Virus record (IMG/VR): IMGVR_UViG_3300031660_000030
Coordinates: 1 to 29,844 of that record
Reading direction: 5' to 3' (one strand)
DNA: 29,844 nucleotides
DNA from: a virus
Below the pieces are notes generated by a model that was not told the origin of the DNA, did not search any database, and worked only from the letters and a program-made list of their open reading frames with translations. This document shows, piece by piece, positions 16,503 to 29,844 of the stretch. Position 1 is the stretch's first letter. Each line of letters starts with the position of its first letter. The position numbers and the translations under genes were made by a program.

Positions 16503-19348
16503 GTTACAGGCTGCATCTGACCCAACACTAGGTCTTCGTATGCTACCTCGGCCTCATCCAACAAACCTACCATCCTAGGATGACTTAGGTTCACACCTAT
16601 AACATAGGTCTGAGGCAGCTTGATGGGTGTGTCCCTACCTAGTGATGCTTTGTTACGTACGGGAGTAGCGTCAGCTAGTTCTTGTACCAGTGTATCAGTC
16701 ACACCCTTGTAGTCGCCGCCTCTGGCAGACAACCACTTTCTAAAGTGTGCGCGGTCCAGCATTAGTGTACCGCTATCGAATGGGTCTGAAGATACCTTCC
16801 TATGCACATCTACTCTGGCTCTGATGCCGTGCCGTGGCATACGTTCGTAGTCCACCATAGGTTTCTGTTTACCAGTGTGCATAACCCGTACCGTATCTCC
16901 CGCAAACTCGTTGAGGTATTCTGATATAAGGTCGAAGGCGTCTATCTGGTTTTCAGATACTGTCTTACGCAAGGTGCCGATCTGATCTACTGCCCACTGC
17001 ATACACGGTTCTGAGCTAAACGATACTATACCCCACTCTTTGGCAAGGCGTAGTGCTAGGTCTGTAAGTACCAGAACCTGTTGCCAGTACCGTTCCTCAC
17101 CCTTGAACGCCACCCCGTAGCGACTGTGGAACTTGTCTGTAGCCTCGGCGATCATGGCGCGTACACCTTCTTCGCCTATAGCCATTAGCTTCTGGATGAA
17201 TATATCTCCAGCCGTGCCATGGTTATCAGACATGATGTCGAATAGTTTCTTGCCTATGTTAGAACTATCTGTGAACAGCTTGCTTGGCGTAACTGTCAAC
17301 TCTAGCAGCCGTGCCATCTGCGCATCGGTATCCATACCAGAAGCTATCATCTTAGAACTTAGCGGCCTGTTAGTAGATACGATACAGAACGTAGCCCAAG
17401 TCTTAGCCTCTCGCTCCTCTGCGTTTCTGTTTAGCCTAGCCTTGTCACGCCCTTGGCTTACCCAGTACAGGAAATCACCTACGTCGTTGTCTGACATCAT
17501 GGTAACTTCGTCTATGGTTACAGGTAGGTTAGCGTATAGGCCGAACCTACTGAACAACGTGTTCTGTGTATACTTGGCTTGGAAGTGTAGCTTGTCTGGG
17601 TTGCCCCATACTGACTGTGCCATTAGCTGAGCCAGTGATTTGCCGCCACCCGTCTTACCGAACAGAGATACTGTCATACCTTTTAGACCACTGAACTCAA
17701 GCATAGGTGACGCTAAACTAATGCCTATAGAGAACATATGCGCGTCCAGCTTAGCCTTCTCTAGCAACGCTGTCATACCTAACCACTTGGCGTGGTCTCC
17801 CTTCATGCCGAACATATCGCTACCGTTGCGGGTAGATGCTGATGCCAGCTTGATGGACTCCTTTTCAATCGTGGTGTCTGGCTTCCGGCGGTACAGTGTA
17901 TCACCTAACACAAACATCTTGTGGTCTTCTTTCCAACCCATAGATGCGTACAAGTTCGTCATGGTTCTAGCCATGCGCAACTCATTCATGTATGCTCTTA
18001 ACATATATTGAAAATACTCCGTCTGTTTCTTGGTAGCCAGTACGATACCTTGATCTGCTATAACGCTTACAAAATATTGGTATGTACCGTCTGCCAGATA
18101 CGCTTGTCGAAGTAGTAAATCTTGCCACCCAACATGCGGCCTCTTCCATTTAAATCTACACACCTCGTAGTTCAGTGATTCGTCTCGCCCATAACTTACT
18201 GGGTATATGTCGAAGCTGCACACATCTATATCAGTATCATCTATCGTAATTTTTATGCCACCGTTAGCTCTCTTAAACTGTTTGGGTATCTCTACCTCAA
18301 CCACCGCCTCGGCTGGTGCGTCCTGAGTTGTATCCTCTGGCTCGTATTGTGCGCCTAGTCTTGTCGGGCTACCTATCCTACCCAAAAACGGACATCCCTT
18401 GCAGCCGCCCGGTCTTGTGCTGTCAAACTTAGTACAAGTCGTTGGTCCATCTACTGCCTGTTTCCAGTTACGCAGTTTCCTAATGGTCTCAGCCTCATCG
18501 TACTGTGGGTGATGTTGGCTCCACTCTTTAGCCGTATCCTCTGGGTCTACACAAAACGCAGCTACACCTATCAGGTTGTACCACATAGGCTCTTGAACTT
18601 CGGACTGATTGTCCACAGCCCACCCAATCTGCTGGCACTTGGATTTCAAGACGCTGGCTATAGACGGGGGGAAGTCTTGCTGCACTGCCATAGCTTGTGA
18701 TAGTTGGCTGTTGCCAGAGTTCTGTCTCAGCTTGGTAGGTGCAGCTACCATATAGTTAGTAAGACATTTAGCCACGCTCTCAGGAGTACACGGCGCTCTG
18801 TCTATCAAGACCTTAGCTTGCTTGTGGCCTTTAGGATTGTGGGTACCCGCTGCCCGTAGCACCCTGACAATATCAGAAGGTACAGACATATCCTGCTTGA
18901 ACCCTCTGTCCTGTACGCACTGCTTCATAGCATCAGCAAGAGGTTGCCATTCATCTGGCTCTAGGTCTCTGGTGAATACCCAATACACATGCAGCCCGTT
19001 ACCAGACGACACGATCATAGGCTCAGGTAGACCTGTATCCTTAACGAATTTTAGTAGGGCTAGCAGACCTTCTCTCTGCGATGGGTAATCTTTACCCTCG
19101 CCGCAATCTATGTCCATGTATAACGATTTGTTTACACGTACATTATCTGATTTCCTACTACCCTTTTTTTGAAACGCACCCGTAGCAAAGTATACGTTTC
19201 TCTTACGTTTGTCTAAAGCTACAACTGCTTTTTCAAGTTCTCCAACGGTATTATAAAAGGCTTGGTTCTTACTAGTGCCATCTATAACTAACGTGCAGTA
19301 TATGCCCTCCGCTGGCAGAACTCGTTGAAGAAAATCCAACGTGTCCAT
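16499..19348 (-). CDS. primase-helicase fusion (AEP-like primase plus DUF927-type ATPase)
   Basis: The N-terminus of this 949-aa protein fits the archaeo-eukaryotic primase superfamily: MDIDCG with D79 and D81, SSGNGLHVYW (114-123, including H120), and SDIVRVLRAAGTHNP (158-172). A Cys cluster follows (C305, C316, C319; GGCKGCP), which may bind metal. The C-terminal half is a DUF927-like SF3/AAA-type ATPase with Walker A GKTGGGKS (564-571), Walker B VTIDE (610-614) and a sensor-like STN near 658-660. It would prime and unwind DNA for PolA. It is the last gene of the leftward block, preceded by a strong palindrome and overlapping the late block by 4 nt at its 3' end. The start follows GAGGG at a long spacing of about 11 nt. 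Confidence 0.87.
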   Translation of the reverse strand: MDTLDFLQRVLPAEGIYCTLVIDGTSKNQAFYNTVGELEKAVVALDKRKRNVYFATGAFQKKGSRKSDNVRVNKSLYMDIDCGEGKDYPSQREGLLALLKFVKDTGLPEPMIVSSGNGLHVYWVFTRDLEPDEWQPLADAMKQCVQDRGFKQDMSVPSDIVRVLRAAGTHNPKGHKQAKVLIDRAPCTPESVAKCLTNYMVAAPTKLRQNSGNSQLSQAMAVQQDFPPSIASVLKSKCQQIGWAVDNQSEVQEPMWYNLIGVAAFCVDPEDTAKEWSQHHPQYDEAETIRKLRNWKQAVDGPTTCTKFDSTRPGGCKGCPFLGRIGSPTRLGAQYEPEDTTQDAPAEAVVEVEIPKQFKRANGGIKITIDDTDIDVCSFDIYPVSYGRDESLNYEVCRFKWKRPHVGWQDLLLRQAYLADGTYQYFVSVIADQGIVLATKKQTEYFQYMLRAYMNELRMARTMTNLYASMGWKEDHKMFVLGDTLYRRKPDTTIEKESIKLASASTRNGSDMFGMKGDHAKWLGMTALLEKAKLDAHMFSIGISLASPMLEFSGLKGMTVSLFGKTGGGKSLAQLMAQSVWGNPDKLHFQAKYTQNTLFSRFGLYANLPVTIDEVTMMSDNDVGDFLYWVSQGRDKARLNRNAEEREAKTWATFCIVSTNRPLSSKMIASGMDTDAQMARLLELTVTPSKLFTDSSNIGKKLFDIMSDNHGTAGDIFIQKLMAIGEEGVRAMIAEATDKFHSRYGVAFKGEERYWQQVLVLTDLALRLAKEWGIVSFSSEPCMQWAVDQIGTLRKTVSENQIDAFDLISEYLNEFAGDTVRVMHTGKQKPMVDYERMPRHGIRARVDVHRKVSSDPFDSGTLMLDRAHFRKWLSARGGDYKGVTDTLVQELADATPVRNKASLGRDTPIKLPQTYVIGVNLSHPRMVGLLDEAEVAYEDLVLGQMQPVT

Positions 19349-19369
19349 GTGTGTTACTGCCCTCTATGT

Positions 19370-19395
19370 GGGGGGCCTAGGCCCCCCGTGTTTTT
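19370..19395 (+). terminator. perfect GC palindrome plus T tract (rightward terminator candidate)
   Basis: Bases 19370-19387 read GGGGGGCCTAGGCCCCCC, a perfect palindrome able to form a 7-bp GC stem with a CUAG loop. On the + strand GTG and five T (19391-19395) follow, giving an intrinsic-terminator shape. On the - strand the stem is followed by ACATAGAGGG with no U tract, so leftward termination should be weaker. It occupies most of the 52-nt gap between the HTH gene and the primase gene. It may stop late rightward transcripts that read through the primase gene, or attenuate or process the leftward mRNA. Confidence 0.6.
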
Positions 19396-19400
19396 CTACA

Positions 19401-19685
19401 TTACTCGCGGCCTTCTAAAACCTCAAGTAAAGTTTGGTATCTAACCACAGCGGTCATACTTTTCGCACCCTCAACAGGCCATTGGCCGTCCTTAACAAGA
19501 GCTATTAGTTGCCGCAGTGTGTTCTTAGCTTTGGCTTCGTTGTTCGCACGAATGGGCTTGCCTCTTACCCATCCGTAGTAAGTCATTCGTGACACACCCA
19601 TTAGCTGTGCCATATGGCTTACGGTTAGGAGCATATGCTCCCGCAGCGATTCAACCTTTCCAAAATCGAGAGGTATCTTAGTCAT
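19401..19685 (-). CDS. small helix-turn-helix protein
   Basis: This 94-aa protein has a clear HTH at about residues 20-41 (LTVSHMAQLMGVSRMTYYGW), where Ala-x3-Gly marks the turn, followed by a basic segment and a C-terminal helical part. It resembles Cro/CI-like or XRE-type DNA-binding proteins with the recognition helix SRMTYYGW. The start overlaps the stop of the ssDNA-binding gene by 8 nt (ATGACTAA), indicating translational coupling. Sitting between replication genes and just before the palindrome, it could be an operon regulator or a replication-initiation adaptor. The target site is unknown. Confidence 0.72.
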   Translation of the reverse strand: MTKIPLDFGKVESLREHMLLTVSHMAQLMGVSRMTYYGWVRGKPIRANNEAKAKNTLRQLIALVKDGQWPVEGAKSMTAVVRYQTLLEVLEGRE

Positions 19686-20646
19686 CAGCTGCTAAGTCCC
19701 CCAATAGATTGTCGATCTCATCTGCAAGAAAGGCTACATCAGTATCAACTGCTCTAGCTGCTTTAGGTTCTTCAGCTGGTGCCGCAACAGGCTTAGGCTT
19801 AGGCTCAGGCTTAGGGGCAACTACCTTCGTACCTGCTCCGAACCCACGGGTAGGAGCCTCTTCAGCTACTGGTTCTGGTGTTGCTTTTACCAGAAGAGGT
19901 TTAGGGTTCTCTGTCTTAGGTGCAGGTGCAGGTGCAAGAAGTACCTCGCCTGTTATCTCCTTAACCTCAGTAGAACCGAACACATTTTCCAGTGATGTCT
20001 GAGTGGTCTCGTCAATGAAACCGCCGAACCCGAACTTCAACTTAGGGAACGAGGCATCAGTGTCGAAGGACACAATAGTCTTAACAATCTCAGGTGGTAT
20101 ACCACGGGTAGCTAGTTCTTTCTGGTATGCGTTAAGACCCTTGAGTGCAGCGGGTGTAACTTGCAGCAGGTACACAGGACCAGTGGGATCATCGGCAGCT
20201 ACAACTGCTAACCGCTTCTGGTCGGAACAGGCTTTGAGTTGCTGCCCGTTGTTACCGATCTTGGAACCCCATGCAGCCCACTTACAGGATGCGCATACGT
20301 CATTCTGCGGTGTCTCACTATCAGGGTGTGGCCTTGTGCCGTCCAAGGAGTAGCAATCAGGTGCAGCAGGTTCCGCATCTTTGTCCCACGCTTTAGCGTA
20401 GTAGGTCTTAGATAGCTTTGGGTTGGCACCCACAATAACTACTGGTAGCTTTGTCGTGTCAAGCACAGTCTCAGTGCCGCCGTCTACAATGCGGAAGCGA
20501 CTACCTTTGATAGATATTTTAGCGAACCCACCGCTAGTGTCAGCTGCTATGCCGCCTGTTAGTGACTGCGCTAACGCAGAGGGTTGACCCATCTTACCCG
20601 CTAGGTGTGCAGGGATTTCGATATTTGTTGGTACGATGTTACTCAT
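19678..20646 (-). CDS. probable single-stranded DNA-binding protein
   Basis: The 322-aa protein has a beta-rich core (about 40-230) containing four Cys that could bind zinc (C98, C118, C121, C140). A long Pro/Ala/Lys/Glu linker covers about 237-297. It ends in a strongly acidic, hydrophobic-dotted tail (DEIDNLLGDLAADD). An acidic C-terminal tail after a disordered linker is the hallmark of SSB-type proteins that recruit polymerase and helicase, and T4 gp32 shows that phage SSBs can carry a zinc site. It sits between helicase/nuclease and primase genes. No direct motif proves DNA binding. GGAGAG lies 5-10 nt before the ATG. Confidence 0.65.
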   Translation of the reverse strand: MSNIVPTNIEIPAHLAGKMGQPSALAQSLTGGIAADTSGGFAKISIKGSRFRIVDGGTETVLDTTKLPVVIVGANPKLSKTYYAKAWDKDAEPAAPDCYSLDGTRPHPDSETPQNDVCASCKWAAWGSKIGNNGQQLKACSDQKRLAVVAADDPTGPVYLLQVTPAALKGLNAYQKELATRGIPPEIVKTIVSFDTDASFPKLKFGFGGFIDETTQTSLENVFGSTEVKEITGEVLLAPAPAPKTENPKPLLVKATPEPVAEEAPTRGFGAGTKVVAPKPEPKPKPVAAPAEEPKAARAVDTDVAFLADEIDNLLGDLAADD

Positions 20647-20647
20647 G

Positions 20648-21046
20648 TTACTCTCCTTTGAGCGCTGGTTTACGAATGTTTATGTCTAGCTTAGTGCCGT
20701 AGTTGACACCAGCAGGTACAGATTTGTTTGCCTCAATGTATCCACGTACAGCCATCTTGCTTATACGTTTCTCCAACATATCATACGCATCGTTATCTCG
20801 TATGAATGTAAGTACAGCATCCCAATCAGCTACAGCTGCGAAGTCTGTAGTGGTTAGGAAGGCAGTGCCGCTATCAGTTTTAAAAGATGTTACGCCATCC
20901 TCATCGGCCTTTTGTTTGAGCCATCCTTCTAGCTTAAACATCTTCTCCTTAAAGACCTTAACCTCTGCTTTAGCAGCAGCTTCTATGACCTCCTTCTGAT
21001 TGCGCAACTTCATGTAAGCGCCGATTACCTCTTCTACTTTAGCCAT
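20648..21046 (-). CDS. conserved-type phage replication companion, coiled coil
   Basis: This 132-aa protein begins with a helical, Lys/Glu/Ala-rich segment (residues 1-45, coiled-coil character), followed by a compact domain with TSFKTDSGTAF near 53-63, DWDAVLTFIRDN near 74-85 and a basic C-terminal end (INIRKPALKGE). I recognise the overall pattern from phage genomes where such a protein sits next to ssDNA-binding and recombination genes, but it has no proven activity that I can name. The layout loosely recalls Gam-like host-nuclease inhibitors (N-terminal helical hairpin); that is a guess. It is separated by 1 nt from the SSB gene and preceded by GGAGTAACACATG, with the helicase stop inside. 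Confidence 0.6.
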   Translation of the reverse strand: MAKVEEVIGAYMKLRNQKEVIEAAAKAEVKVFKEKMFKLEGWLKQKADEDGVTSFKTDSGTAFLTTTDFAAVADWDAVLTFIRDNDAYDMLEKRISKMAVRGYIEANKSVPAGVNYGTKLDINIRKPALKGE

Positions 21047-21049
21047 GTG

Positions 21050-22600
21050 TTACTCCATTTCTCTCTGGATTAAATCCAGTAGTAAGCCTTGTAGTTTCTG
21101 TTTATTGGCAAGCCGCTCGTACATAATATGTTCTATCTGCGTAGCTTCTATATGCACCACGTTAGACGTGTGCTTCTTACCAATCCTCTCAATCCGTCCG
21201 TTAGCTTGGACGTACTGTTCGTTGCTGGTCACTGGTCCGTACCACACAATTGTCGATGCAGATGTGAGCGTCAGGCCGTGAGCCATGGTTGCAGGGTGGG
21301 CGATCAAGACCCTTGGGTCTCGTGCGTCTTGAAAGTTTTTGAAGATCACGTTGCGCTTAGCCGCAGAGACCTGACCGTTTACCACAGCTACAGACCAGTG
21401 CTTGCTTAGCTCACGCTCTAACATATGCAGCGTACCTGTTAGTGGTACGAAGACGATGACCTTCTGCCCTGCCTCTTGTATAACCTCCTTAACAGCGTTC
21501 ACTCTGGGCTGGCAGTCCAGTTCTACGTTCTGACCATCGTCGCTGTAGGCAACGCCACAGGCTATCTGAACAAGTTTCTGTAACTTAACCGCCTCGTTCA
21601 CCGCAGTGATGGTACCTTCAACTGCTGCCTCTGTCACAAGGTGACGCATCATAGTCTGGTAATGCTTAGCTTGCTCAGGCGTTAGAGGTACTGCCCTTGT
21701 CTGGCGCACAGTGTCAGGTAGATCAAAGCACTCATCCCTAGTGTACCTGACAGCAGGTTGTAGTGTGTGCTTCACAATCTCCATGCTCTCCTGTCGAGGT
21801 ACGTATTTATACTGACCTATCTTCATCATCACTTGCTCGCGAAACCCAGTGTAGGTCTTGCTCACGTTCTGATTACCTACCAATGTAGCCAACGCCCATG
21901 CGTCAGTAGGGTCATTAGGTGTAGGTGTGCCTGTCATAAGCCACAAGCGTATGTCCTCATGCTGCTTCATCCACTTGCGGAATATCTTAAACCTACTGGT
22001 CGATGGGTTCCGAAGCACAGCTGCCTCGTCTATGATAACAAGGTCAAACATACCTATGGTCTCATCGCGTATGATATTAAATCCATCGTGGTTAATGATG
22101 TAGAAGTCAGCTTCGGTATTGAGTAACTTCTTCCGCCTAGCCGCTGTCCCGTGTAGCACAACGTGTTTACGGTGGATAAGCCCTGTAAATATACCATCGC
22201 CCCACACACGTTCGAGTGTAGATAGGGGGGACAAGATCAGAACTTTCTTTATCGCACCCACTGACATCAAGTAGTCAGCTGCCCACAATGCGCTCTGGGT
22301 TTTACCAGTACCAATCTCATTGAGTACCAAAGCTCTGGTGTTCATAGTAAGAAACGCAGAAGTCATACTTTGATGCTCGTAAGGCGTGAACTGGCCCGGC
22401 CAATCGTAGTAGTGTAGTATAGGAGATGGTGCTTTTATACCAAGCTCACGCAGCTTACCGACTTCCTTCACCCTATGAGGGGTGACTACATAGTCCGTAC
22501 CGTTCTTGTGCCACAGTTTCGCAGTCGGCATAGTAGCCAACACACGCTGTGGGTTGTTAAGCTTTAAGGCTAGCGCCTTGGATTTCTCTATTACAAGCAC
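21050..22600 (-). CDS. SNF2-like DEAD/H-box superfamily 2 helicase
   Basis: The 516-aa protein has SF2 motifs in order: Walker A NEIGTGKTQ (94-102), motif Ia LILSPLSTLERVW, motif II DEAA (191-194), motif III LMTGTP (221-226), and motif V/VI GLTLTSAS...QANGRIERIGK near 450-480. The compact form and TSASTIVW/QANGRIERIG signature fit SNF2-type ATPases of phages, which translocate on double-stranded DNA. The start is GTG at 22600, chosen because GGGAG lies 7 nt upstream. This makes a 44-nt overlap with the VRR-NUC gene. An ATG at 22531 would avoid the overlap but has no Shine-Dalgarno. It probably works with the adjacent nucleases in fork or recombination processing. Confidence 0.87.
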   Translation of the reverse strand: MLVIEKSKALALKLNNPQRVLATMPTAKLWHKNGTDYVVTPHRVKEVGKLRELGIKAPSPILHYYDWPGQFTPYEHQSMTSAFLTMNTRALVLNEIGTGKTQSALWAADYLMSVGAIKKVLILSPLSTLERVWGDGIFTGLIHRKHVVLHGTAARRKKLLNTEADFYIINHDGFNIIRDETIGMFDLVIIDEAAVLRNPSTSRFKIFRKWMKQHEDIRLWLMTGTPTPNDPTDAWALATLVGNQNVSKTYTGFREQVMMKIGQYKYVPRQESMEIVKHTLQPAVRYTRDECFDLPDTVRQTRAVPLTPEQAKHYQTMMRHLVTEAAVEGTITAVNEAVKLQKLVQIACGVAYSDDGQNVELDCQPRVNAVKEVIQEAGQKVIVFVPLTGTLHMLERELSKHWSVAVVNGQVSAAKRNVIFKNFQDARDPRVLIAHPATMAHGLTLTSASTIVWYGPVTSNEQYVQANGRIERIGKKHTSNVVHIEATQIEHIMYERLANKQKLQGLLLDLIQREME

Positions 22601-22886
22601 GAATGAACTCCCTCACCGTCTCTATTGTGTCGCTGTCACAGGCCACAAAACATTTGCCACCTGCCTTCTCTATGTTAGCCATCGCTTGCTCCTGTAGTCG
22701 CGTAGGTTTCTTTGTCCTATCTGACTTACATTCAACGCCAAGGAATAGTCCCTTAACTATAGCGATCCTATCTGGTATACCCGCTGCTCCGAACGGTCCC
22801 GCTTGTGGGCTGTAGTACCAGACGCCTTCCTCCTTAAACATTTTATCAAGGGCCTTCTTAATACGCCCCTCTGGTGTAGTAGCCAT
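22557..22886 (-). CDS. VRR-NUC domain nuclease
   Basis: The 109-aa protein has a complete minimal VRR-NUC (PD-(D/E)XK) core: E6 in the first helix, GIPDR with D39, VECK with E52 and K54, and a following helix with Q65. Stand-alone VRR-NUC proteins of this length are common in phages, usually next to an SNF2-like helicase as here, and can act as structure-specific (Holliday junction or flap) nucleases. AGGA lies 6 nt before the ATG. The C-terminus overlaps the helicase start by 44 nt in another frame. Confidence 0.88.
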   Translation of the reverse strand: MATTPEGRIKKALDKMFKEEGVWYYSPQAGPFGAAGIPDRIAIVKGLFLGVECKSDRTKKPTRLQEQAMANIEKAGGKCFVACDSDTIETVREFIRACNREIQGASLKA

Positions 22887-22898
22887 AGATATTCCTAA

Positions 22899-22917
22899 CT
22901 GTAAAGTATGTCAAGTT
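22899..22917 (-). repeat. copy 1 of a 19-bp exact direct repeat
   Basis: CTGTAAAGTATGTCAAGTT (as written on the + strand) occurs here and at 26988-27006 in the same orientation. On the transcribed - strand it reads as a TTGACA followed by TACTTTACAG. Here it fills most of the 34-nt gap between the Cas4-like nuclease and VRR-NUC genes. TTGACA with 17-nt spacing would put a -10 on the VRR-NUC start codon, so it is not a simple promoter for that gene as annotated. An operator or other regulatory element is possible. Confidence 0.6.
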
Positions 22918-22920
22918 TAA

Positions 22921-23577
22921 TTATACATATTCGCAAAAGTTTTTGCATGGACACCAGTTGCATAGGCCACTGGGTTTGGCTGGCCAGTTGTCAGAAGCTA
23001 GAGATTTCTCTACTCGAACAACCTTGTTCATAAGCCGTGACCAAAGCTCTGGCTCATCGTCTCTGGTGTACTGTTCGTGATCCATTGACAGGTCTTTGAG
23101 CCACACAAATGAGGTGCGTACCCGCTTGACATCTGGGTAGTGCTTGAACACTTGCAATGCAAACAACTCTAGCTGTGAGAAATCTGGTCTGCGCTTACCT
23201 GTCTTCCAATCAAACATCACAGCTTCTGCGCCTTGGACCACCAGTACGTCAACGATTGACCGCATCCATGCGTCCTTAGCAAACCAACTCGTAGTCTCTA
23301 GTGCTTCGTTCAACGTCAGCTGTTGCTCAACCAATAACTCCCCGCCCTCAGCCAGCTTAATGATCGACTTACATAGCGGGTCATAACGAGCAACCTCTTG
23401 TGGTAGCTCTGTCGCCTTGGCTAACCGGTCCTCAAGGAACTTGTGTACACGTTCCCCCCATATAGTAGCCTCGCCACCTTGGTCTTTAACTTCTTTGAGT
23501 ACACGCTGGTGGTAGTACCGCTTGGGGCAGTTCTCGTACATCTTGAGGGACGAAAAGGAATGAGATAGTTTTGTCAC
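22921..23577 (-). CDS. Cas4/RecB-like PD-(D/E)XK nuclease with Fe-S cysteines
   Basis: The 218-aa protein shows the PD-(D/E)XK nuclease core of the RecB/Cas4 group: H45 in GERVHKFLED, D110 in SIVDVLVV, FDWK with D123 and K125, and Q135 in the following helix. A single N-terminal Cys (C17 in YENCPKRYY) and a C-terminal C206-x2-C209-x5-C215 cluster match the 4Fe-4S ligands of Cas4/AddB-type exonucleases; C211 is extra. The likely role is 5'-3' resection for recombination or replication. No cas1/cas2 or array is nearby, so a CRISPR role is not suggested. It overlaps the polA stop by 4 nt. Confidence 0.88.
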   Translation of the reverse strand: MTKLSHSFSSLKMYENCPKRYYHQRVLKEVKDQGGEATIWGERVHKFLEDRLAKATELPQEVARYDPLCKSIIKLAEGGELLVEQQLTLNEALETTSWFAKDAWMRSIVDVLVVQGAEAVMFDWKTGKRRPDFSQLELFALQVFKHYPDVKRVRTSFVWLKDLSMDHEQYTRDDEPELWSRLMNKVVRVEKSLASDNWPAKPSGLCNWCPCKNFCEYV

Positions 23578-25406
23578 TTAGCTTCTCCATAGTTTGCACC
23601 TATGTCTGCTTCGCAAGCCACGGGTAAGTCTGATGCCCATGTGGGCGGTGTAGACATTACATCTACCATGAAATCTCTGGCCTCTTCAGCCTTATCTTCG
23701 TCCACTACGCACACAACCTCATCGTGAACCTGTAGTGCCACATGGTATCGCTGACCTATGGCAACCATCTGCTCAGCTACAACGATACGAGCAACAGCTT
23801 GTGTAATGTTCTCCACTACCTTGCCGCCGTATATCTTAGTCCAGCTTACGTTATCCATGTGCATATTTTTGTAGGCTCTTGCAGTATTTATGTACTCGAA
23901 CCCATCCTCACCTCTGCGTAGCGCAGGGTAGCGTATGTATAAACCGTTAGGCATCCTGATACCGTCGGCATCGTAGTCCAGTATGCTACACACCTGACCG
24001 CTGCCACCCGCCGCGATACCCTTTATGACGTGGTTGCATCTGTTCCATAGTGACACGATGTTGTGGTTCTTGTTGCGGTATAGATCGACAACACGTTTAG
24101 CTTCGCCTTCATCTACTGTAACTGAGGGGAACCCTGACTTGAGTGATGCTTGGAACTTCGGTGCGCCCATGCCGTAGCCCAGCCCAAGGATAGCTGTCTT
24201 ACCTACATGTCGCTCCAACTTGTTCGCCTTACTAACAGGCTTGCCATACACATCGGTGGCAAACTCTGAGTACACATCGTTAGCATCTCTAAAAGATTGT
24301 AGTAGATCGTTCTGCTCTGCCAGATACGCAACCATCCTCGCCTCGATCTGAGAGGAATCACATGCCACAATGAGTTGTCCTTTGGGTGCAGTCAGTGCTG
24401 CCCGCAGCTTGCCGTTGCGCGGTAGGTTTTGTAGGTTAACCTTATCACCACCGCTGAACCTGCCAGTGTGCGCTCCGTAGTAGTTGAGCATGATAGGTAG
24501 AGGGCCACGGTCAGCGATACCCATAAAGGATATAGTCCTACTCTCCTCAATAGTAGACTTAACACCCAGTCTAGCTTCAACGACAGCACGAACAGAGGGC
24601 TTGCTATGGTTAAGCAGTTCCTTGAACCCTTGATCTGTCTTAGCAAAAGCGTAGGCTTCCTTACCTGTCCTGATGCTGGTCTTCATGGGCGGCTCTACGC
24701 CGAGCGCACGTAATAGGTCAGCGAACTTGGGGTTGGACATCAGTATGTCCTTGGCCTTAGCCTCACCGCCGAGCTTGTCTAGTAGTGCAGCCTTGCGCTC
24801 CTGAATATATTGTAGGTGTTCCACCAACACGTTGTGGTCTAGTTCAATCGTAGGTTCTGTGTACATGCGCAGCGTCTGGTCTATCACCAGCAACTCAGCC
24901 TTGGGAAAACCCTTAGATAGTTTCTTAAACAACTTGTATGTTAGCTCTACATCTTGGACACAATAGTCTGAGTAGCGTTGCATCTCGTCTTCTGTAAAGT
25001 CTTTGCGGCGTCTACCAAGGTTGTTGAATACCTCATCACCCTTCTTGCCTAGCCTGTAGTGTGCGGCTAAGTTCTTGAGCGATCCCCCTACTGTCATCTG
25101 GTGCTTGGGTCTTGCCATAGATAGTGTGTCGAGCCACAGCTTAGGTTTGATACCAAACCTCCAGCCCAATATGGCCCCGTCGAACGCAGTGTTGTGGCAT
25201 AGTATAGCCTTGTCACTGTAGTCCATTGAGTGAAGGAACCTGCCTGTATCTGCGCCACTATACCAATCAGTAGCGTGGTCATTGACCTTAACACCCACGC
25301 CGATCACCTCAAAACGAGGGTCACGAACGTAGGCTTCGGTTGTCATCTTCGACAGAGAATAATCCCTGTCGTAGTATGTTTCAAAGTCTAGTGTTACTAG
25401 GTCCAT
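23574..25406 (-). CDS. polA: family A DNA polymerase with 3'-5' exonuclease
   Basis: The N-terminal 3'-5' exonuclease of this 610-aa protein has D7 and E9 (DFET), N72/D76 (HNTAFD) and Y148-x3-D152. The polymerase part has motif A D350-SSQIE (E355), motif B from R399 with K403 and Y411 (RHVGKTAILGLGYGMG), and motif C H561-D562-E563. No 5'-3' exonuclease is fused, as usual for phage enzymes. The residue aligned with E. coli Pol I Phe762 is Leu407. It would be the replicative polymerase, working with the primase-helicase, SSB and nucleases downstream. The start overlaps the stop of the DUF6378 gene by one base. Confidence 0.95.
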   Translation of the reverse strand: MDLVTLDFETYYDRDYSLSKMTTEAYVRDPRFEVIGVGVKVNDHATDWYSGADTGRFLHSMDYSDKAILCHNTAFDGAILGWRFGIKPKLWLDTLSMARPKHQMTVGGSLKNLAAHYRLGKKGDEVFNNLGRRRKDFTEDEMQRYSDYCVQDVELTYKLFKKLSKGFPKAELLVIDQTLRMYTEPTIELDHNVLVEHLQYIQERKAALLDKLGGEAKAKDILMSNPKFADLLRALGVEPPMKTSIRTGKEAYAFAKTDQGFKELLNHSKPSVRAVVEARLGVKSTIEESRTISFMGIADRGPLPIMLNYYGAHTGRFSGGDKVNLQNLPRNGKLRAALTAPKGQLIVACDSSQIEARMVAYLAEQNDLLQSFRDANDVYSEFATDVYGKPVSKANKLERHVGKTAILGLGYGMGAPKFQASLKSGFPSVTVDEGEAKRVVDLYRNKNHNIVSLWNRCNHVIKGIAAGGSGQVCSILDYDADGIRMPNGLYIRYPALRRGEDGFEYINTARAYKNMHMDNVSWTKIYGGKVVENITQAVARIVVAEQMVAIGQRYHVALQVHDEVVCVVDEDKAEEARDFMVDVMSTPPTWASDLPVACEADIGANYGEAK

Positions 25407-25894
25407 TACTTTGATCTCTTAGCAACGAGTTCCGCACCACACGCGAGGTACCCCGCACCATCAATCCAATTATCACAATGCTCCCTGTTCGATTTGATAC
25501 GTGCGAGTTTTAACAGGGTCATCATCACGGCAACATCATCAGAGTATACTGGCGTGTCGAGATGCAGTGACCAGTATTCCGCAATCTTGGTGAAGTTATC
25601 CTCCATGTTGCCATGGTCAGCCGCACGATCCTTAGTCACGTATTCCTTGGCTGTGTCCAACACGTATGAACGATTAACACCAACGTGTTTGTCGTATGTT
25701 GATGTGGTTTCCCCGGTACTACTGGTACTAACAACACCGCTGTTGGTCATTAACACTTCGGGTGGTGTACCGATCTTCTGCATCAGCTTATATACATAGC
25801 CGTAAGAAGATTTGGTAGCCTTAGCTATCTGGCTCACAGTAGCTTGTGGGTTCTTTAACTTATAGGCCCATATTTTTTCTTGTTTCTTAGTCAT
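25406..25894 (-). CDS. HTH plus DUF6378 domain protein
   Basis: The N-terminus of this 162-aa protein (about 17-40, ATVSQIAKATKSSYGYVYKL) is a helix-turn-helix. A Ser/Thr-rich linker (50-68) leads to an all-helical domain at about 76-158 with VLDTAKEYV, NFTKIAEYW and DVAVMMTLLKLAR (119-132), then NWIDGAGYLACGAEL. This matches the phage domain DUF6378, whose function is unknown and whose helical pattern is MazG-like. It lies immediately before polA and shares one base with it. A link to nucleotide-pool control or polymerase regulation is inference. AGGAGTGACACATG gives a good ribosome-binding site. Confidence 0.78.
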   Translation of the reverse strand: MTKKQEKIWAYKLKNPQATVSQIAKATKSSYGYVYKLMQKIGTPPEVLMTNSGVVSTSSTGETTSTYDKHVGVNRSYVLDTAKEYVTKDRAADHGNMEDNFTKIAEYWSLHLDTPVYSDDVAVMMTLLKLARIKSNREHCDNWIDGAGYLACGAELVAKRSK

Positions 25895-25903
25895 GTGTCA
25901 CTC

Positions 25904-26092
25904 CTAAATTTTATGACCTGCTTTACGCAAGTCCCTTACAAAATTGTCCAGTTCCTCCCTAGCGGCGAACAAATCCCGCTTTACAGTGGGCAGCGCATCA
26001 CGCCGGTACTGTTCGTCTTGCAACCTATCAACCTGTTGTCGCAAGTATTTCAGTTGTGAAGACGCAAACATACCTAGATCATCATCACCCAT
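25904..26092 (-). CDS. small coiled-coil protein
   Basis: This 62-aa protein is almost entirely helical and charged, with heptad-like leucines (LKYLRQQVDRLQ at 14-25, then FAAREELDNFVRDL), suggesting a short coiled coil. The family is not recognised. The start overlaps the stop of the upstream mini-gene by 8 nt (ATGGGTGA), and the gene is followed after 9 nt by the DUF6378 gene. It belongs to the chain of translationally coupled mini-genes ahead of polA. Confidence 0.6.
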   Translation of the reverse strand: MGDDDLGMFASSQLKYLRQQVDRLQDEQYRRDALPTVKRDLFAAREELDNFVRDLRKAGHKI

Positions 26093-26255
26093 CGTATTCT
26101 CCCACTAAATCCCTTTCGTCTAGGGCTAGCTCTTTGCCAGAAATTGCGTTCATTGCGATCAACATCCGCTGTAACGCCACTCCTTTCATTGGGTATCTGC
26201 CGAACACTTTCTTGAACACTTCATCCAGCATCACATCCATCTGTTGCTCATTCAT
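26085..26255 (-). CDS. 56-aa mini-protein of unknown function
   Basis: The product begins MNEQQMDVMLDEVFKKV and ends DERDLVGEYDG; it is acidic, Met rich and helical. The second of two in-frame ATGs (26255) is chosen because a very strong GGAGGAGG lies 6 nt upstream; the first ATG (26261) directly abuts that motif. The start overlaps the stop of the zinc-finger gene by 8 nt (ATGAATGA), and the stop overlaps the next start by 8 nt. No family is recognised. The strong ribosome-binding site and coupling support real expression. Confidence 0.62.
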   Translation of the reverse strand: MNEQQMDVMLDEVFKKVFGRYPMKGVALQRMLIAMNAISGKELALDERDLVGEYDG

Positions 26256-26427
26256 CTTCATCCTCCTCCACTTCTATAAGTATTTCGCCAGCGCCATCGC
26301 AGGTTTCACAGTGTGTAGCCTCTTCATACGGCTCCCCAAAGTCTCTGTCGAAACTCTGAGGTTTGAAAACCGTGACGCTCTGCACACCATCGCCAGCGCA
26401 GTCACGGCATGTAGCATATTTCTTCAT
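26248..26427 (-). CDS. 59-aa DnaJ-like zinc-finger mini-protein
   Basis: The small protein contains two C-x2-C-x-G-x-G units: CRDCAGDG (C7, C10) and CETCDGAG (C40, C43). They are separated by about 29 residues and followed by an acidic tail (EVEEDEDE). Two such units make one zinc site in the DnaJ cysteine-rich domain, so this is probably a free-standing half DnaJ zinc finger. There is no J domain. AAGGA lies 8 nt before the ATG. The stop overlaps the next gene by 8 nt. It may act as a protein-protein adaptor for the replication machinery; that is inference. Confidence 0.7.
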   Translation of the reverse strand: MKKYATCRDCAGDGVQSVTVFKPQSFDRDFGEPYEEATHCETCDGAGEILIEVEEDEDE

Positions 26428-26446
26428 TATATAATTCCTTTCGTTG

Positions 26447-26626
26447 TTAACCCTTACTTGCGTTCAACACTCGGTTAATCATACCAATCGCAGCGTTCTT
26501 AGTTACGCCAAAATGTCTGCCGATCTCATTCATACTGAACCCCTCGTCTCGAAGGTAAAGTGCTTCCAGTATCTGATCGTCTGTCCATGCCGCCGAATGT
26601 TTTCTTTTATACTCGCCCTTACCCAA
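26447..26626 (-). CDS. 59-aa GcrA-like helix-turn-helix mini-protein
   Basis: The ORF carries WTDDQILEAL (14-23) and then GFSMNEIGRHFGVTKNAAIG (29-48), followed by MINRV. This is the pattern of the N-terminal HTH of GcrA-type regulators (W-T/S-D-E ... EG-S-x2-IA ... VT-R-NAVIGK). Upstream of TTG at 26626 the frame is closed by TAA, and no ATG precedes the HTH. TTG is therefore the likely start; it overlaps the stop of the upstream mini-gene by 8 nt (TTGGGTAA). GcrA acts with sigma70 at methylated promoters in Alphaproteobacteria. A host-directed regulatory role is inference. Confidence 0.62.
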   Translation of the reverse strand: MGKGEYKRKHSAAWTDDQILEALYLRDEGFSMNEIGRHFGVTKNAAIGMINRVLNASKG

Positions 26627-26795
26627 TGCCTTTTATCCACCTTAAATCCTTGAGTAACGCCATCTTCTCCTTGGTTACACATTCAAGTTTCAGTGTAAGC
26701 CGCGCAATCTCGCTACGTTGCTTGGAGTTCTTGCTCTGAACTACAAGTATCTGTGCATCCTTACGGCGTATTAGTTCATTAAGTTCTTTACTCAT
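26619..26795 (-). CDS. 58-aa basic coiled-coil mini-protein
   Basis: The ORF runs from ATG at 26795 (MSKELNELIRRKD...) to TAA at 26619. The product is Lys/Arg/Glu/Leu rich and helical, likely a coiled coil. Its start overlaps the stop of the 254-aa gene by 4 nt (ATGA) and GGAGAGGAC lies about 8 nt upstream. Its stop overlaps the TTG start of the GcrA-like gene by 8 nt. No family is recognised. Confidence 0.6.
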   Translation of the reverse strand: MSKELNELIRRKDAQILVVQSKNSKQRSEIARLTLKLECVTKEKMALLKDLRWIKGIG

Positions 26796-27556
26796 TGGCT
26801 ATTGTCCTCTCCAAAAACGCCGAACCTCTTACGTAATTCCACGCTTTGTGCTGCCAGCATGGTGTCTACGTACCCTAATACATCAGCTGTAGTTATCTCC
26901 GCTGACCTATAGTACCCCATATATCCTGACGTTGCCTCTACTAGAGTACGCAACATATCAGTGGGGTGTTCGTTATTCTTAATACATCTGTAAAGTATGT
27001 CAAGTTCCTGAGGATTGTCAAAGGTTACGTGTCTCCACTTATTTGTATCTGCCCGTCTGGTTTTTATAACGGCGTCAATAGCACCCATCTTACCGCGTAC
27101 CTTCACACCGCGCTTCCACTTTCGCAGTGCGCTTAGCCACACCTTGCGTGCCTCTGGTATAACACGGTCCTTGAGGTCAGGCATGGGGTTAAGGCATGTA
27201 CCTGTTAGTATACTGAACTGCATACCTTGGAAGTACTCTGGTTTTTGTGAGCTACCCCAGTGAGACACCACTTTATACCTACCTACCCCTGCCCTCTGCC
27301 AATAGAGCGGCACCACATCATCCAGTGCCATAGATAGAGTGTTTGAATTATTGCGCGCCTCGGTGGGTGTCATAACAAACGTCAACACGTTGTCAGGAGA
27401 CAAGCGGAACACCGCCGTCCCGTGAATAGCAAACGTAAACACATTGTCATTGGCTAAGTATAGCCGTCCGAACGAACGGACAGGCTTGCCTTTAGCGGGG
27501 TCACGCACATTAGCAAAGTGTGCATACGCTGTTTCGTAGTTGTGAAATACTGGCAT
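26792..27556 (-). CDS. unknown phage protein
   Basis: The 254-aa protein has a beta-rich N-terminal half (FGRLYLANDNVFTFAIHGTA near 29-48 and further strands to about 115), a basic middle (KVWLSALRKWKRGVKVRGK at about 138-156) and a helical C-terminal third. There are few Cys and no signal peptide or TM segment. I do not recognise a family or catalytic motif. It follows the 227-aa unknown by 1 nt (GAGG-TAA-C-ATG junction) and shares 4 nt with the next mini-gene, so it is part of the leftward operon. The basic middle could contact nucleic acid. The 3' part of its gene contains copy 2 of the 19-bp repeat. Confidence 0.65.
   Translation of the reverse strand: MPVFHNYETAYAHFANVRDPAKGKPVRSFGRLYLANDNVFTFAIHGTAVFRLSPDNVLTFVMTPTEARNNSNTLSMALDDVVPLYWQRAGVGRYKVVSHWGSSQKPEYFQGMQFSILTGTCLNPMPDLKDRVIPEARKVWLSALRKWKRGVKVRGKMGAIDAVIKTRRADTNKWRHVTFDNPQELDILYRCIKNNEHPTDMLRTLVEATSGYMGYYRSAEITTADVLGYVDTMLAAQSVELRKRFGVFGEDNSQ
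26988..27006 (-). repeat. copy 2 of a 19-bp exact direct repeat
   Basis: This is identical to 22899-22917 and in the same orientation, but it lies inside the 254-aa coding gene, where it encodes ELDILYR. On the - strand, TTGACA (27003-26998) with a 17-nt spacer is followed by AAGAAT (4 of 6 to TATAAT). It could therefore be an internal promoter driving the mini-gene cluster and polA. Its conservation in two contexts, one intergenic and one coding, argues that the DNA sequence itself is selected. Confidence 0.55.
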
Positions 27557-27557
27557 G

Positions 27558-28241
27558 TTACCTCACCAACTTAGCTAGAGTAACAGAGGCAGTCAGGCTG
27601 CTAGTATCCATGTCTAGCTCAACAGGCTTGTTAGACCTACGCTCCACAACCTCTTTGTGTTTCGCTTTCTTGTCCTCTGGGATTAAGTCCCACAGTGCAG
27701 GCCATGCTTTAAGGGCTGGAGCTAGCGTAGAGTAGTTGTCAATGATCTTACCTACACCATCTACAAACGCATCTCGCTTAGCCTCTGCTGTTTGCACTCG
27801 CTTACCCCATGCAGTGTACTCCTCAAGTATATCTGCGAACTTATGTTGATTGTACGCCAGCCTCACACCACGGCCATAGGTTAGGTCACACCCATCGTTA
27901 GCTTTGTTCGTGTCATAGGCCCAAGGTAGGCCAGATACATCTAGCGATGGTGTCGTATAGCTGCGATGATGGTCTTCGGGCTGTCCAAAGTCTAACCTTA
28001 CACTGCGAGTGTTGGTGTCAAAGAAGCCCTCAAAGTGTAGGGTATCGTGCGTCTTAAAGAAACGAGCAGGTAGTTGTGCCATCTTGGCTTGTGTGTCTGC
28101 ATCAATCACAGCGTCATAAATCTTACGACCAAACCCTTCTGGTATACTATGCCTTGCCTTATCAATAGAAGGATCGTGGATTTTCTTTGCAGCATCCTTG
28201 ATGTTGCCCTTCAGTTCGTCACTAAATCTTACAGTAGCCAT
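27558..28241 (-). CDS. unknown phage protein
   Basis: The 227-aa protein has a mostly helical N-terminus (residues 1-65), a beta-like middle with FKTHDTLHFEGFFDTNTRSV at about 62-81 and a Gly/Asp-rich stretch, then helices and a Lys/Glu-rich segment (EDKKAKHKEVVERR at about 189-202) before a short Ser/Thr/Leu tail. It has no recognisable catalytic motif, TM segment or signal peptide. GGAGAG lies 5-10 nt before the ATG, inside the end of the upstream gene. It sits between the VWA module and the 254-aa unknown, in the same operon. Confidence 0.65.
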   Translation of the reverse strand: MATVRFSDELKGNIKDAAKKIHDPSIDKARHSIPEGFGRKIYDAVIDADTQAKMAQLPARFFKTHDTLHFEGFFDTNTRSVRLDFGQPEDHHRSYTTPSLDVSGLPWAYDTNKANDGCDLTYGRGVRLAYNQHKFADILEEYTAWGKRVQTAEAKRDAFVDGVGKIIDNYSTLAPALKAWPALWDLIPEDKKAKHKEVVERRSNKPVELDMDTSSLTASVTLAKLVR

Positions 28242-28242
28242 G

Positions 28243-28443
28243 TTACTCTCCTAGTATTTTGCGGATTTCCATCTCGCCTTGGTTGTTGAAACGAAACTCT
28301 ACCTCTTTGTTTGCCACATCGGTCAATACACTTAGGTAGAACTCACTGTTACGCTTTGCTCTCCCGCACTCTCTATGCGTTAGCAGTACGTAAATTAAGT
28401 TAGCGACCATCAGAGCCGCTAACATTAGTTGTTCTGTACTCAC
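28243..28443 (-). CDS. single-TM mini-protein
   Basis: This 66-aa protein starts at GTG, overlapping the stop of the VWA gene by 4 nt (GTGA). Residues 5-22 (QLMLAALMVANLIYVLLT) form one hydrophobic helix. The rest is charged (RECGRAKRNSEF, then ...FRFNNQGEMEIRKI), presumably cytoplasmic. The family is not recognised. Coupling to the VWA gene suggests a possible membrane anchor or partner for that module, but this is inference. Confidence 0.6.
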   Translation of the reverse strand: MSTEQLMLAALMVANLIYVLLTHRECGRAKRNSEFYLSVLTDVANKEVEFRFNNQGEMEIRKILGE

Positions 28444-29543
28444 ATCATCACCACTTCACCGAACGGTGCTTTGTCAGAGTGGGTTGATACCCATAGTACA
28501 GGGTAGTCAGGTGACGTACCAAAGTCATAGCAAACAAGGTCAGTCAGTACGACAGCAGCAACAGGCTCTATGTCGTTGTCCTGTAAGAACTGCCACAGTG
28601 GGCTGAAGGCAGTGCCACCTCCGCCGTGCGCTTTTACATGCACCTCGTCAGTAGGCTCAAACACATCGTGATGTGACACCTCACTGTCAAAGTATACAAC
28701 ATGCAGCTTACTAGGTATCAAGTCAGTGTGTACCTTACGTACTTCTGCTGCGAACTGTGCGATCTCCTCATCACCTATAGAGCCAGAGCAATCTACAAAG
28801 AACACAACCTCGCCAAGCATCTCACCAGTACGGGATGGTAGGAACAACCCCTGAGTTGCAAACCTACGGTTGGCCCTAGCAAAGCTACGCTGGTCAGTCT
28901 TACGCCGCTCCAAGAACTTATCCATAACGTCCTCCCAATTAACCTTGGGTGACAACACTGATTGGACTAGACGTTCTAACCCCTCGGATAGTTTACCTGA
29001 CATCTTAGCTGCTTGGGCTGCTTGGGCTACCTTGACGCGCCACTCGGCCTCGTCTTGTGCCTGTTCAGCAGCGTCATCAGAGGGTGCGCCTATGTCCTGA
29101 CCGATACCTCCTTCACCAGAGCTGTCATCTTGGTAATCATCTGGCAACAGGTTGTAGACACCTTCTGTAGTGCCGCCACCTCTGTCGAACAGGTCTTTAT
29201 CTAGGCAACCACCTTCGATGAAGTCACCTATACCCTCGTCCTTGAGCATCTGATTGATGATGATGTCACCAGCTATGTTCCACCTCTTAGGGTCACGACC
29301 AGACAGCCGCCATATATGGCTGAGCATAGGGTGGAAGCACTCGTGTGCTACAAGGAATACGATGTTACCATCGGTCAGTCTGTCAACAAAGTCTGGGTTG
29401 TATCGCACCTCCTTACCATTGGTACAGGCAGTAGGTATGCTGTCATCCAGTACGTTGGGCATACCAAGGGCAATAGAACCAAAGAACGGATGCTCTAGCA
29501 CCAGTGTGGTCTTAGCCTTGGATAGTCGTTTCATTATATCCAT
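28440..29543 (-). CDS. DUF2201-type metallopeptidase-like plus VWA protein
   Basis: The N-terminal putative metallopeptidase domain of this 367-aa protein has HECFH (H67-H71) and WNIAGDIIINQML (88-100, with D93 a candidate third ligand). An acidic linker (about 134-165) and a helical part follow. The C-terminal VWA domain has MIDAS D251-C-S-G-S255, GGGGT (T311) and TD at 334-335. This is the DUF2201 architecture. In cells such proteins are usually encoded next to a MoxR-type AAA+ ATPase and are thought to work as a chaperone or remodelling pair; the upstream partial gene may be that partner. GAGGA lies 7 nt before the ATG. The role in phage biology is unknown. Confidence 0.85.
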   Translation of the reverse strand: MDIMKRLSKAKTTLVLEHPFFGSIALGMPNVLDDSIPTACTNGKEVRYNPDFVDRLTDGNIVFLVAHECFHPMLSHIWRLSGRDPKRWNIAGDIIINQMLKDEGIGDFIEGGCLDKDLFDRGGGTTEGVYNLLPDDYQDDSSGEGGIGQDIGAPSDDAAEQAQDEAEWRVKVAQAAQAAKMSGKLSEGLERLVQSVLSPKVNWEDVMDKFLERRKTDQRSFARANRRFATQGLFLPSRTGEMLGEVVFFVDCSGSIGDEEIAQFAAEVRKVHTDLIPSKLHVVYFDSEVSHHDVFEPTDEVHVKAHGGGGTAFSPLWQFLQDNDIEPVAAVVLTDLVCYDFGTSPDYPVLWVSTHSDKAPFGEVVMM

Positions 29544-29716
29544 TATTTGTCCTCCTCATAATAGACGGTTAGTGTGTAGTGGAACCGATTAGGCTCCACT
29601 CCTATGTCTTTAAGCGCAGTCCTAACTACTTCATCAATGTAGATAGCGTCAGGCAGACTAGGCATACGCTCTAGTACAAGCTCTTTGTGGCCAGCTTTGA
29701 ACCACTTAGGTATCAA
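29543..29716 (-). CDS. 57-aa mini-protein, TTG start
   Basis: The ORF begins at TTG 29716, where GGGAG lies 7 nt upstream. The TTG overlaps the stop of the upstream gene (TTGA, 4 nt), and its TAA shares one base with the ATG of the VWA gene. The product (IPKWFKAGHKELVLERMP ... TLTVYYEEDK) has an amphipathic N-terminus and an alternating beta-like C-terminus. No family is recognised. Exact packing between two genes supports it as real. It may be a small accessory of the ATPase/VWA pair. Confidence 0.6.
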   Translation of the reverse strand: MIPKWFKAGHKELVLERMPSLPDAIYIDEVVRTALKDIGVEPNRFHYTLTVYYEEDK

Positions 29717-29844
29717 GATGCTGCTCCCATAAATGCGCCCATCTTAGCCATGATGTCGTTGGCTTCCTCTGCTTTGTCACGGCGTAGGTCAGGGTCATTA
29801 CGTAAGGCATCAGGGTGATACCCTACCAGCTTACCCTCAACCTC
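29713..29844 (-). CDS. C-terminal end of a gene (possible MoxR-type AAA+ ATPase), partial
   Basis: The last 43 residues of an ORF entering from the right edge are visible: they begin EVEGKLVGYHPDALRNDPDL and end in ANDIMAKMGAFMGAAS, then TGA. Only the C-terminal tail is in the window, so no ATPase motif can be seen. The AAA+ suggestion comes solely from its place directly upstream of a DUF2201/VWA gene. The reading frame is open throughout and is coupled to the next gene, so coding status is likely even though its identity is not shown. Confidence 0.5.
   Translation of the reverse strand, partial: EVEGKLVGYHPDALRNDPDLRRDKAEEANDIMAKMGAFMGAAS

Follow-up and report, generated by a model that had tools for sequence, protein, structure and literature searches.

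A gene triad of phages and megaplasmids composed of an AAA+ ATPase, a DUF3150-like protein and a zincin-like VWA protein

Phage N4 encodes a pair of proteins, gp24 and gp25, whose genes belong to the conserved core of the N4-like phages (PMC4193335, PMC7650795) and are middle genes (PMC4193335). In the N4-like roseophages RPP1 and RLP1 the homologues of gp24/gp25 are absent from the virion list, and in RPP1 the genes of four virion proteins lie close to these homologues (PMC4193335). Relatives of gp24/gp25 are present in more than 500 sequenced phages. Biochemistry, expression, proteomics and tested function were looked for, both for this pair and for the families of the triad described below, and none was found; the CRISPRi-ART paper gave no data on the essentiality of gp24/gp25. 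A pair composed of a MoxR ATPase and a metallopeptidase-vWA protein is also found in jumbo phages, and virion assembly and processing were proposed as its role by Iyer et al. 2021 (PMC7824862). The archaeal virus ATV carries p618 in its virion, and this protein binds the VWA protein p892 (PMC4124505). In NorQ/NorD, the pore of the AAA+ ring accommodates the VWA partner, which is twisted upon ATP hydrolysis and thereby acts on the client (PMC13036017).

The window, which is the whole stretch of DNA analysed here, is a 29.8-kb fragment of a bacterial virus (29,844 nt; IMG/VR record IMGVR_UViG_3300031660_000030). A preliminary description of this DNA had pointed out a VWA protein, two small genes coupled to it and a truncated gene at the edge of the window that might be the MoxR ATPase partner. 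That description missed that ATPase-VWA pairs are already known in podoviruses and jumbo phages. What is new relative to the known pair is a DUF3150-like third component.

Genes and motifs of the module

The minus-strand block that contains the module (Table 1) converges on plus-strand virion and lysis genes. The DNA polymerase of the window is nearest to those of KPP25 and the Rhizobium RHph_TM phages, not to N4-like phages, and the polymerase gene is present in each of the 12 larger contigs of relatives that were checked (46-57 kb). In most relatives an Nmad5-family gene lies downstream of the VWA gene; PF18757 is matched by 12 of the 18 members of this family (best E 2.1e-7), the window's own member staying under the cut-off (E 1.2e-4). 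The largest protein of the window (2446 aa, 9162-16502) has PHROG matches in its C-terminal part only, to phrog_11358 and phrog_21376, both of unknown function; the hallmark of Schitoviridae is a giant virion RNA polymerase.

Table 1. Coordinates of the module and of its surroundings (window positions, except where contig L002 is named).
Feature	Position	Strand	Remarks
Minus-strand block	16499..29844	-	Module, primase/helicase, SNF2 helicase, PD-(D/E)XK nuclease, family A DNA polymerase
254-aa gene	26792..27556	-	No assigned function; next in many relatives
Nmad5-family gene	27558..28241	-	Usual follower of the module
66-aa accessory gene	28243..28443	-	GTG start; single TM; 4-nt overlap with VWA stop
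DUF2201 protein, 367 aa	28440..29543	-	N-terminal zincin-like domain, C-terminal VWA domain
MIDAS D335 (TD)	28539..28541	-	Invariant in alignment
MIDAS T311 (GGGGT)	28611..28613	-	Invariant in alignment
MIDAS DxSGS (D251-x-S253-G-S255)	28779..28793	-	Residues 251-255; invariant in alignment
D93 in W-N-x-A-x-D-x-x-x-N	29265..29267	-	Candidate third zinc ligand; invariant in the 35-member and 32-row sets
HECFH (H67-E68-x-x-H71)	29331..29345	-	HExxH zinc-site motif; invariant in 35-member alignment
57-aa accessory gene	29543..29716	-	TTG start; 1-nt overlap with VWA start, 4-nt overlap with upstream stop
DUF3150-like gene, C-terminal 43 codons	29713..29844	-	Real ORF, open at window edge; completed by L002
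DUF3150-like gene, full, 285 aa	L002 2561-3418
AAA+ ATPase, 331 aa	L002 1542-2537		Walker A GAPGGGKT; one gene beyond the edge gene

Two Pfam families are matched by the VWA ORF, DUF2201_N (residues 5-238, E 1.2e-44) and DUF2201 (residues 246-367, E 1.1e-26), and the protein corresponds to PHROG 1314 (E 3.1e-98). The HECFH motif and the intact MIDAS reported in the preliminary description thus fall within recognised domains. None of the residues that define them varies among 35 aligned members, which include N4 gp25, Bacillus phage G gp576, Thermus phage phiFa and cyanophage MinM2. In a wider VWA set HExxH is retained in 31 of 32 proteins. H76 is nearly invariant, being D in RHph_X2_28B, and D93 is a candidate for the third zinc ligand. 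Residues 241-367 of the structure model match VWA domains (Z ~13, rmsd 2.4, 126 aligned), and Foldseek relates the protein to ATV ORF892 (E 2.1e-5), so the comparison with cellular MoxR-VWA pairs and with ATV made in that description was apt. A search by sequence among solved structures gave nothing meaningful for this protein.

Two observations on the family can be added. The VWA protein of a Variovorax plasmid (L089 9935-11221) has SATVLH where HExxH is expected, so that the HE is lost, and keeps its MIDAS intact; it is a candidate for a naturally peptidase-dead form and suggests that at least one lineage can do without peptidase activity. The DUF2201 VWA family carries the label 'HNH endonuclease' in PHROG 1314 and in RefSeq phage records. 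Pfam detects no HNH domain either in the window protein (28440-29543) or in N4 gp25 (L084 3165-4307), and the label is probably a mislabel propagated over hundreds of phage genomes.

The IMG/VR contig L002 is 99.92% identical to the window over 5085 bp (4 mismatches) and provides 3.3 kb of additional sequence on the right. It completes the edge gene as a DUF3150-like protein instead of an ATPase; the Walker A and B motifs that a rightward extension was expected to reveal are in the following gene. The putative MoxR-clade partner is therefore encoded in the same operon, as had been supposed, one gene further than the edge gene. This ATPase is a full-length member of PHROG 1297, the N4 gp24 family (E 7.7e-68). 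All 31 members of the AAA+ family have an AAA_5 Pfam match and the top PDB sequence match of the family is Midasin, likewise an AAA+/MIDAS machine, both of which point to the MoxR clade, a group defined by a helix-2 insert. The Walker B motif of the triad ATPases is DD in the window's phage group and in Burkholderiales plasmids, and DE in MinM2, Rhodovastum and the two-gene relatives. A 32-bp stretch of L002 with a ribosome-binding site and a start codon (CCAAGTGGAGGACTACCCTATGAAGCT) is present as a near-exact repeat before two different genes (630-661 and 2542-2572).

The assignment of the third component comes from several comparisons. Pfam PF11348 (DUF3150) is matched by 9 of 30 members of the family (best E 2.8e-4), that of the window not being among them, and aligned homologues are annotated as DUF3150 in phage MinM2 and in Cupriavidus plasmids. 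A BFVD model labelled DUF3150 is matched at E 5.1e-17. The predicted structure, of moderate confidence (pLDDT 79, pTM 0.50), is mostly helical and has no propeller. Searches of the PDB with Foldseek and VIA gave no known fold at E < 0.05, though this should not be read as a sign of a new fold; generic four-helix bundles were the sole PDB matches of the C-terminal part. Sequence searches for solved relatives of this protein gave nothing meaningful, Pfam gave no VMAP, FtsH, beta-propeller or iSTAND match, although the protein may still be of the iSTAND kind, and no mention of DUF3150 was found in the literature, whose coverage was partial, so that this last result is weak evidence. In a Candidatus Manganitrophus plasmid (L095 3860-6882), DUF3150 is accompanied by a different AAA ATPase, DUF1257 and DUF2997, with a JAB-domain gene nearby; no DUF2201 protein is present in the stretch viewed.

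Regarding the small genes, the coupling of the VWA gene to a TTG-start gene and to a single-TM gene is borne out by the overlaps and by one hydrophobic segment in the 66-aa protein (Kyte-Doolittle maximum 1.72 over 19 residues). Homologues of the 57-aa gene are found only in six relatives besides L002 (L003-L007 and L009), with 55-90% identity and an ATG or TTG start. The 66-aa gene has homologues in L003-L012, seven of them at 63-65% identity and three at 33-35%, and small hydrophobic ORFs occupy its place in some other relatives. Since these homologues vary in sequence and preserve frame and place, both are genes and not chance ORFs. Their restriction to close relatives rules them out as core parts of the module and marks them as lineage-specific add-ons.

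Conservation in phages and presence on plasmids

Synteny was sampled in 80 IMG/VR loci. The AAA+, DUF3150-like and VWA genes lie in this order on one strand in all 69 loci with enough flanking sequence, the other 11, in which no ATPase is visible, having less than ~1.6 kb of upstream sequence each. Likewise, the DUF3150-like and VWA genes follow each other in this order in 77 of 77 loci, and the remaining three have less than 300 bp of flank each; the DUF3150-like stop is at most 20 bp from the VWA start in 21 of these 77. Of the four genes named in the preliminary description, the edge gene and the VWA gene thus keep their synteny, together with the ATPase beyond, whereas the small genes are kept by close relatives only. 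An upstream gene that is not an ATPase and small ORFs that are not conserved, the observations which that description had named as contrary to its proposal, apply to the literal neighbour and to distant relatives only.

Searches with the VWA protein gave 533 to 637 phage records with relatives (kin of N4 gp24/gp25). In whole records, the HMM of the DUF3150-like family detects the protein in all 24 relatives, in MinM2 and in the four plasmids searched, and in none of seven two-gene phages (N4, SBP1, Presley, RHph_X2_28B, JWAlpha, phage G and phiFa). Phage G gp569, N4 gp30 and phiFa_35 were considered as counterparts of the DUF3150-like protein and rejected, as neither profile comparison nor the whole-record HMM gave a match.

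Besides the window's phage group, the triad is hosted by cyanophage MinM2 and by megaplasmids of Burkholderiales and Acetobacteraceae. The DUF3150-like gene was found in 44 plasmid records, the VWA gene in 57 and both in 41, with a gap of 59-118 bp between them in 39 of the 41. In each of the seven plasmid triad regions viewed, the AAA+ gene precedes the other two on their strand, and in six it is immediately adjacent; in a Simplicispira plasmid it lies ~3.6 kb from the DUF3150-like and VWA genes, with small genes between. The annotation of the flanks viewed around the plasmid triads includes no virion gene. A PRTRC or ThiF-like cassette is located ~5 kb away from two megaplasmid triads (L088, L098), and type IV secretion genes follow directly after two (L087, L098). 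A scan of bacterial genomes for chromosomal relatives with VWA patterns gave one MAG contig only (56% identity), probably phage sequence.

In a tree of the joined AAA+ and VWA sequences, all 22 triads are on the same side of a branch whose support is moderate and not decisive (85/93). Within it, MinM2 pairs with an alphaproteobacterial plasmid of Rhodovastum, apart from the other phages (100/99), and the same pairing is recovered in the DUF3150 tree (100/98). Although long branches limit these trees, the agreement between the two suggests that the triad travels as a unit and that phages and plasmids have exchanged it more than once.

Possible roles of the triad

On balance, we favour the reading that the triad is an intracellular, ATP-driven remodelling and peptidase machine of the MoxR clade, with the DUF3150-like protein as adaptor, which acts together with replication genes and is not part of the virion. 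The VWA protein would be bound by a hexameric ring of the AAA+ protein, and its MIDAS may grip an acidic residue in a partner or substrate protein. By analogy with NorQ/NorD, ATP hydrolysis would exert a pull or a twist on the VWA protein, so that the zincin-like domain attached to it could cleave or hold the substrate thus exposed. As an adaptor or third subunit, the DUF3150-like protein, encoded between the other two, may determine the choice of substrate, and the targets would be host or phage proteins of the replication phase, inside the cell. The timing is read indirectly from the position of the module in the genome.

A role as virion-assembly chaperone that also processes structural proteins, as in the jumbo-phage proposal and in ATV tail development, appears unlikely. 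It was put forward by Iyer et al. for the same kind of MoxR/metallopeptidase-vWA pair (PMC7824862), and it agrees with the binding of p892 by the ATV virion protein p618, with the fold match of the window protein to ATV ORF892 and with the four RPP1 virion proteins encoded near the gp24/gp25 homologues. However, the same triad is carried by megaplasmids, the AAA+/VWA pair is also found on pSYSA and others, the window's module is in the replication block and not in a late block, and the N4 gp24/gp25 homologues are outside the RPP1/RLP1 virion list. Two features, plasmid copies with no virion genes annotated nearby and the position among the replication genes, speak against a role that is purely structural; together with the N4 middle genes and the virion list they favour an intracellular one, with help in assembly as a possible addition. 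The job of the triad probably goes beyond the building of virus particles. The third component and the plasmid setting make the assembly proposal directly testable, because assembly cannot be the sole job if plasmids use the same machine; the plasmid and phage copies could nevertheless have diverged in function.

The presence of the triad on both kinds of mobile element also bears on a conflict module, that is, a MoxR-vWA-X ternary system directed against host defences or competing elements. The same three-part logic is seen in the ternary systems that Kaur et al. described (PMC7159879) and in the iSTAND variants (PMC12839542), and DUF262 and toxin-like genes are found close to plasmid versions with two genes. 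Nevertheless, PADLOC and NCBIfam gave no family match above chance, and the third component, conserved in 24 of 24 relatives, is not hypervariable, unlike typical accessory anti-defence genes, so this explanation is considered quite improbable. Concerning these two-gene versions, MoxR/VWA pairs were seen near DUF262 genes in pSYSA (L099 3970-6248) and in a Sphaerotilus plasmid (L100 3730-6107), toxin-antitoxin-like genes being also close in the former.

Very unlikely, in our judgement, is a machine for enzyme activation or metal insertion like NorQ/NorD, CbbQ/CbbO or CobS/CobT, acting for example on a nucleotide-modification enzyme linked to Nmad5. Activation is the role of the best understood MoxR-VWA pairs (PMC13036017) and in the window's phage group the module is often followed by a gene of the Nmad5 family, but neither the plasmid triads nor that of MinM2 have an annotated Nmad5 neighbour, and no metalloenzyme is consistently linked.

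The favoured intracellular machine admits a wider formulation, which is doubtful though worth considering: the triad would be a distinct mobile remodelling peptidase of phages and conjugative megaplasmids, and DUF3150 a new class of MoxR-VWA adaptor aimed at a host process that both kinds of element must control.

Comparison with known systems

The window's triad and N4 gp24/gp25, the core pair of Schitoviridae, share full-length homology of the AAA+ and DUF2201 VWA proteins, gene order, strand, HExxH and MIDAS. They differ in sequence (27-28% identity), in Walker B, which is DE in N4 and DD in the window's phage, and in the DUF3150-like gene, found in none of the five Schitoviridae records searched. 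The jumbo-phage pair likewise joins a MoxR AAA+ protein to a vWA protein with an N-terminal metallopeptidase; it belongs to another phage group, its description, in the part available, includes no third component, and the assembly role proposed there fits the plasmid copies poorly (PMC7824862). The ternary MoxR-vWA-X conflict systems also have three components and a vWA protein that may be fused to a peptidase, a feature present in the window protein (DUF2201_N with HExxH), whereas their third component is VMAP, FtsH, a beta-propeller or iSTAND and that of the triad is DUF3150-like (PMC7159879).

ATV p618/p892 is, like the genes described here, a viral MoxR AAA+ protein with a VWA partner; however, ATV is an archaeal virus, its p618 is in the virion and the VWA likeness is at fold level only. 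The cellular pairs RavA/ViaA, NorQ/NorD and CbbQ/CbbO present the same combination of a MoxR AAA+ protein with a VWA cochaperone and the same MIDAS logic. To our knowledge, these pairs have neither a zincin domain nor DUF3150. The megaplasmid triads, annotated as ATP-binding protein, hypothetical or DUF3150 protein and VWA-like protein, have the same three genes in the same order and share a branch with the phage triads, from which they differ in being located on conjugative or large plasmids, sometimes near PRTRC and type IV secretion genes.
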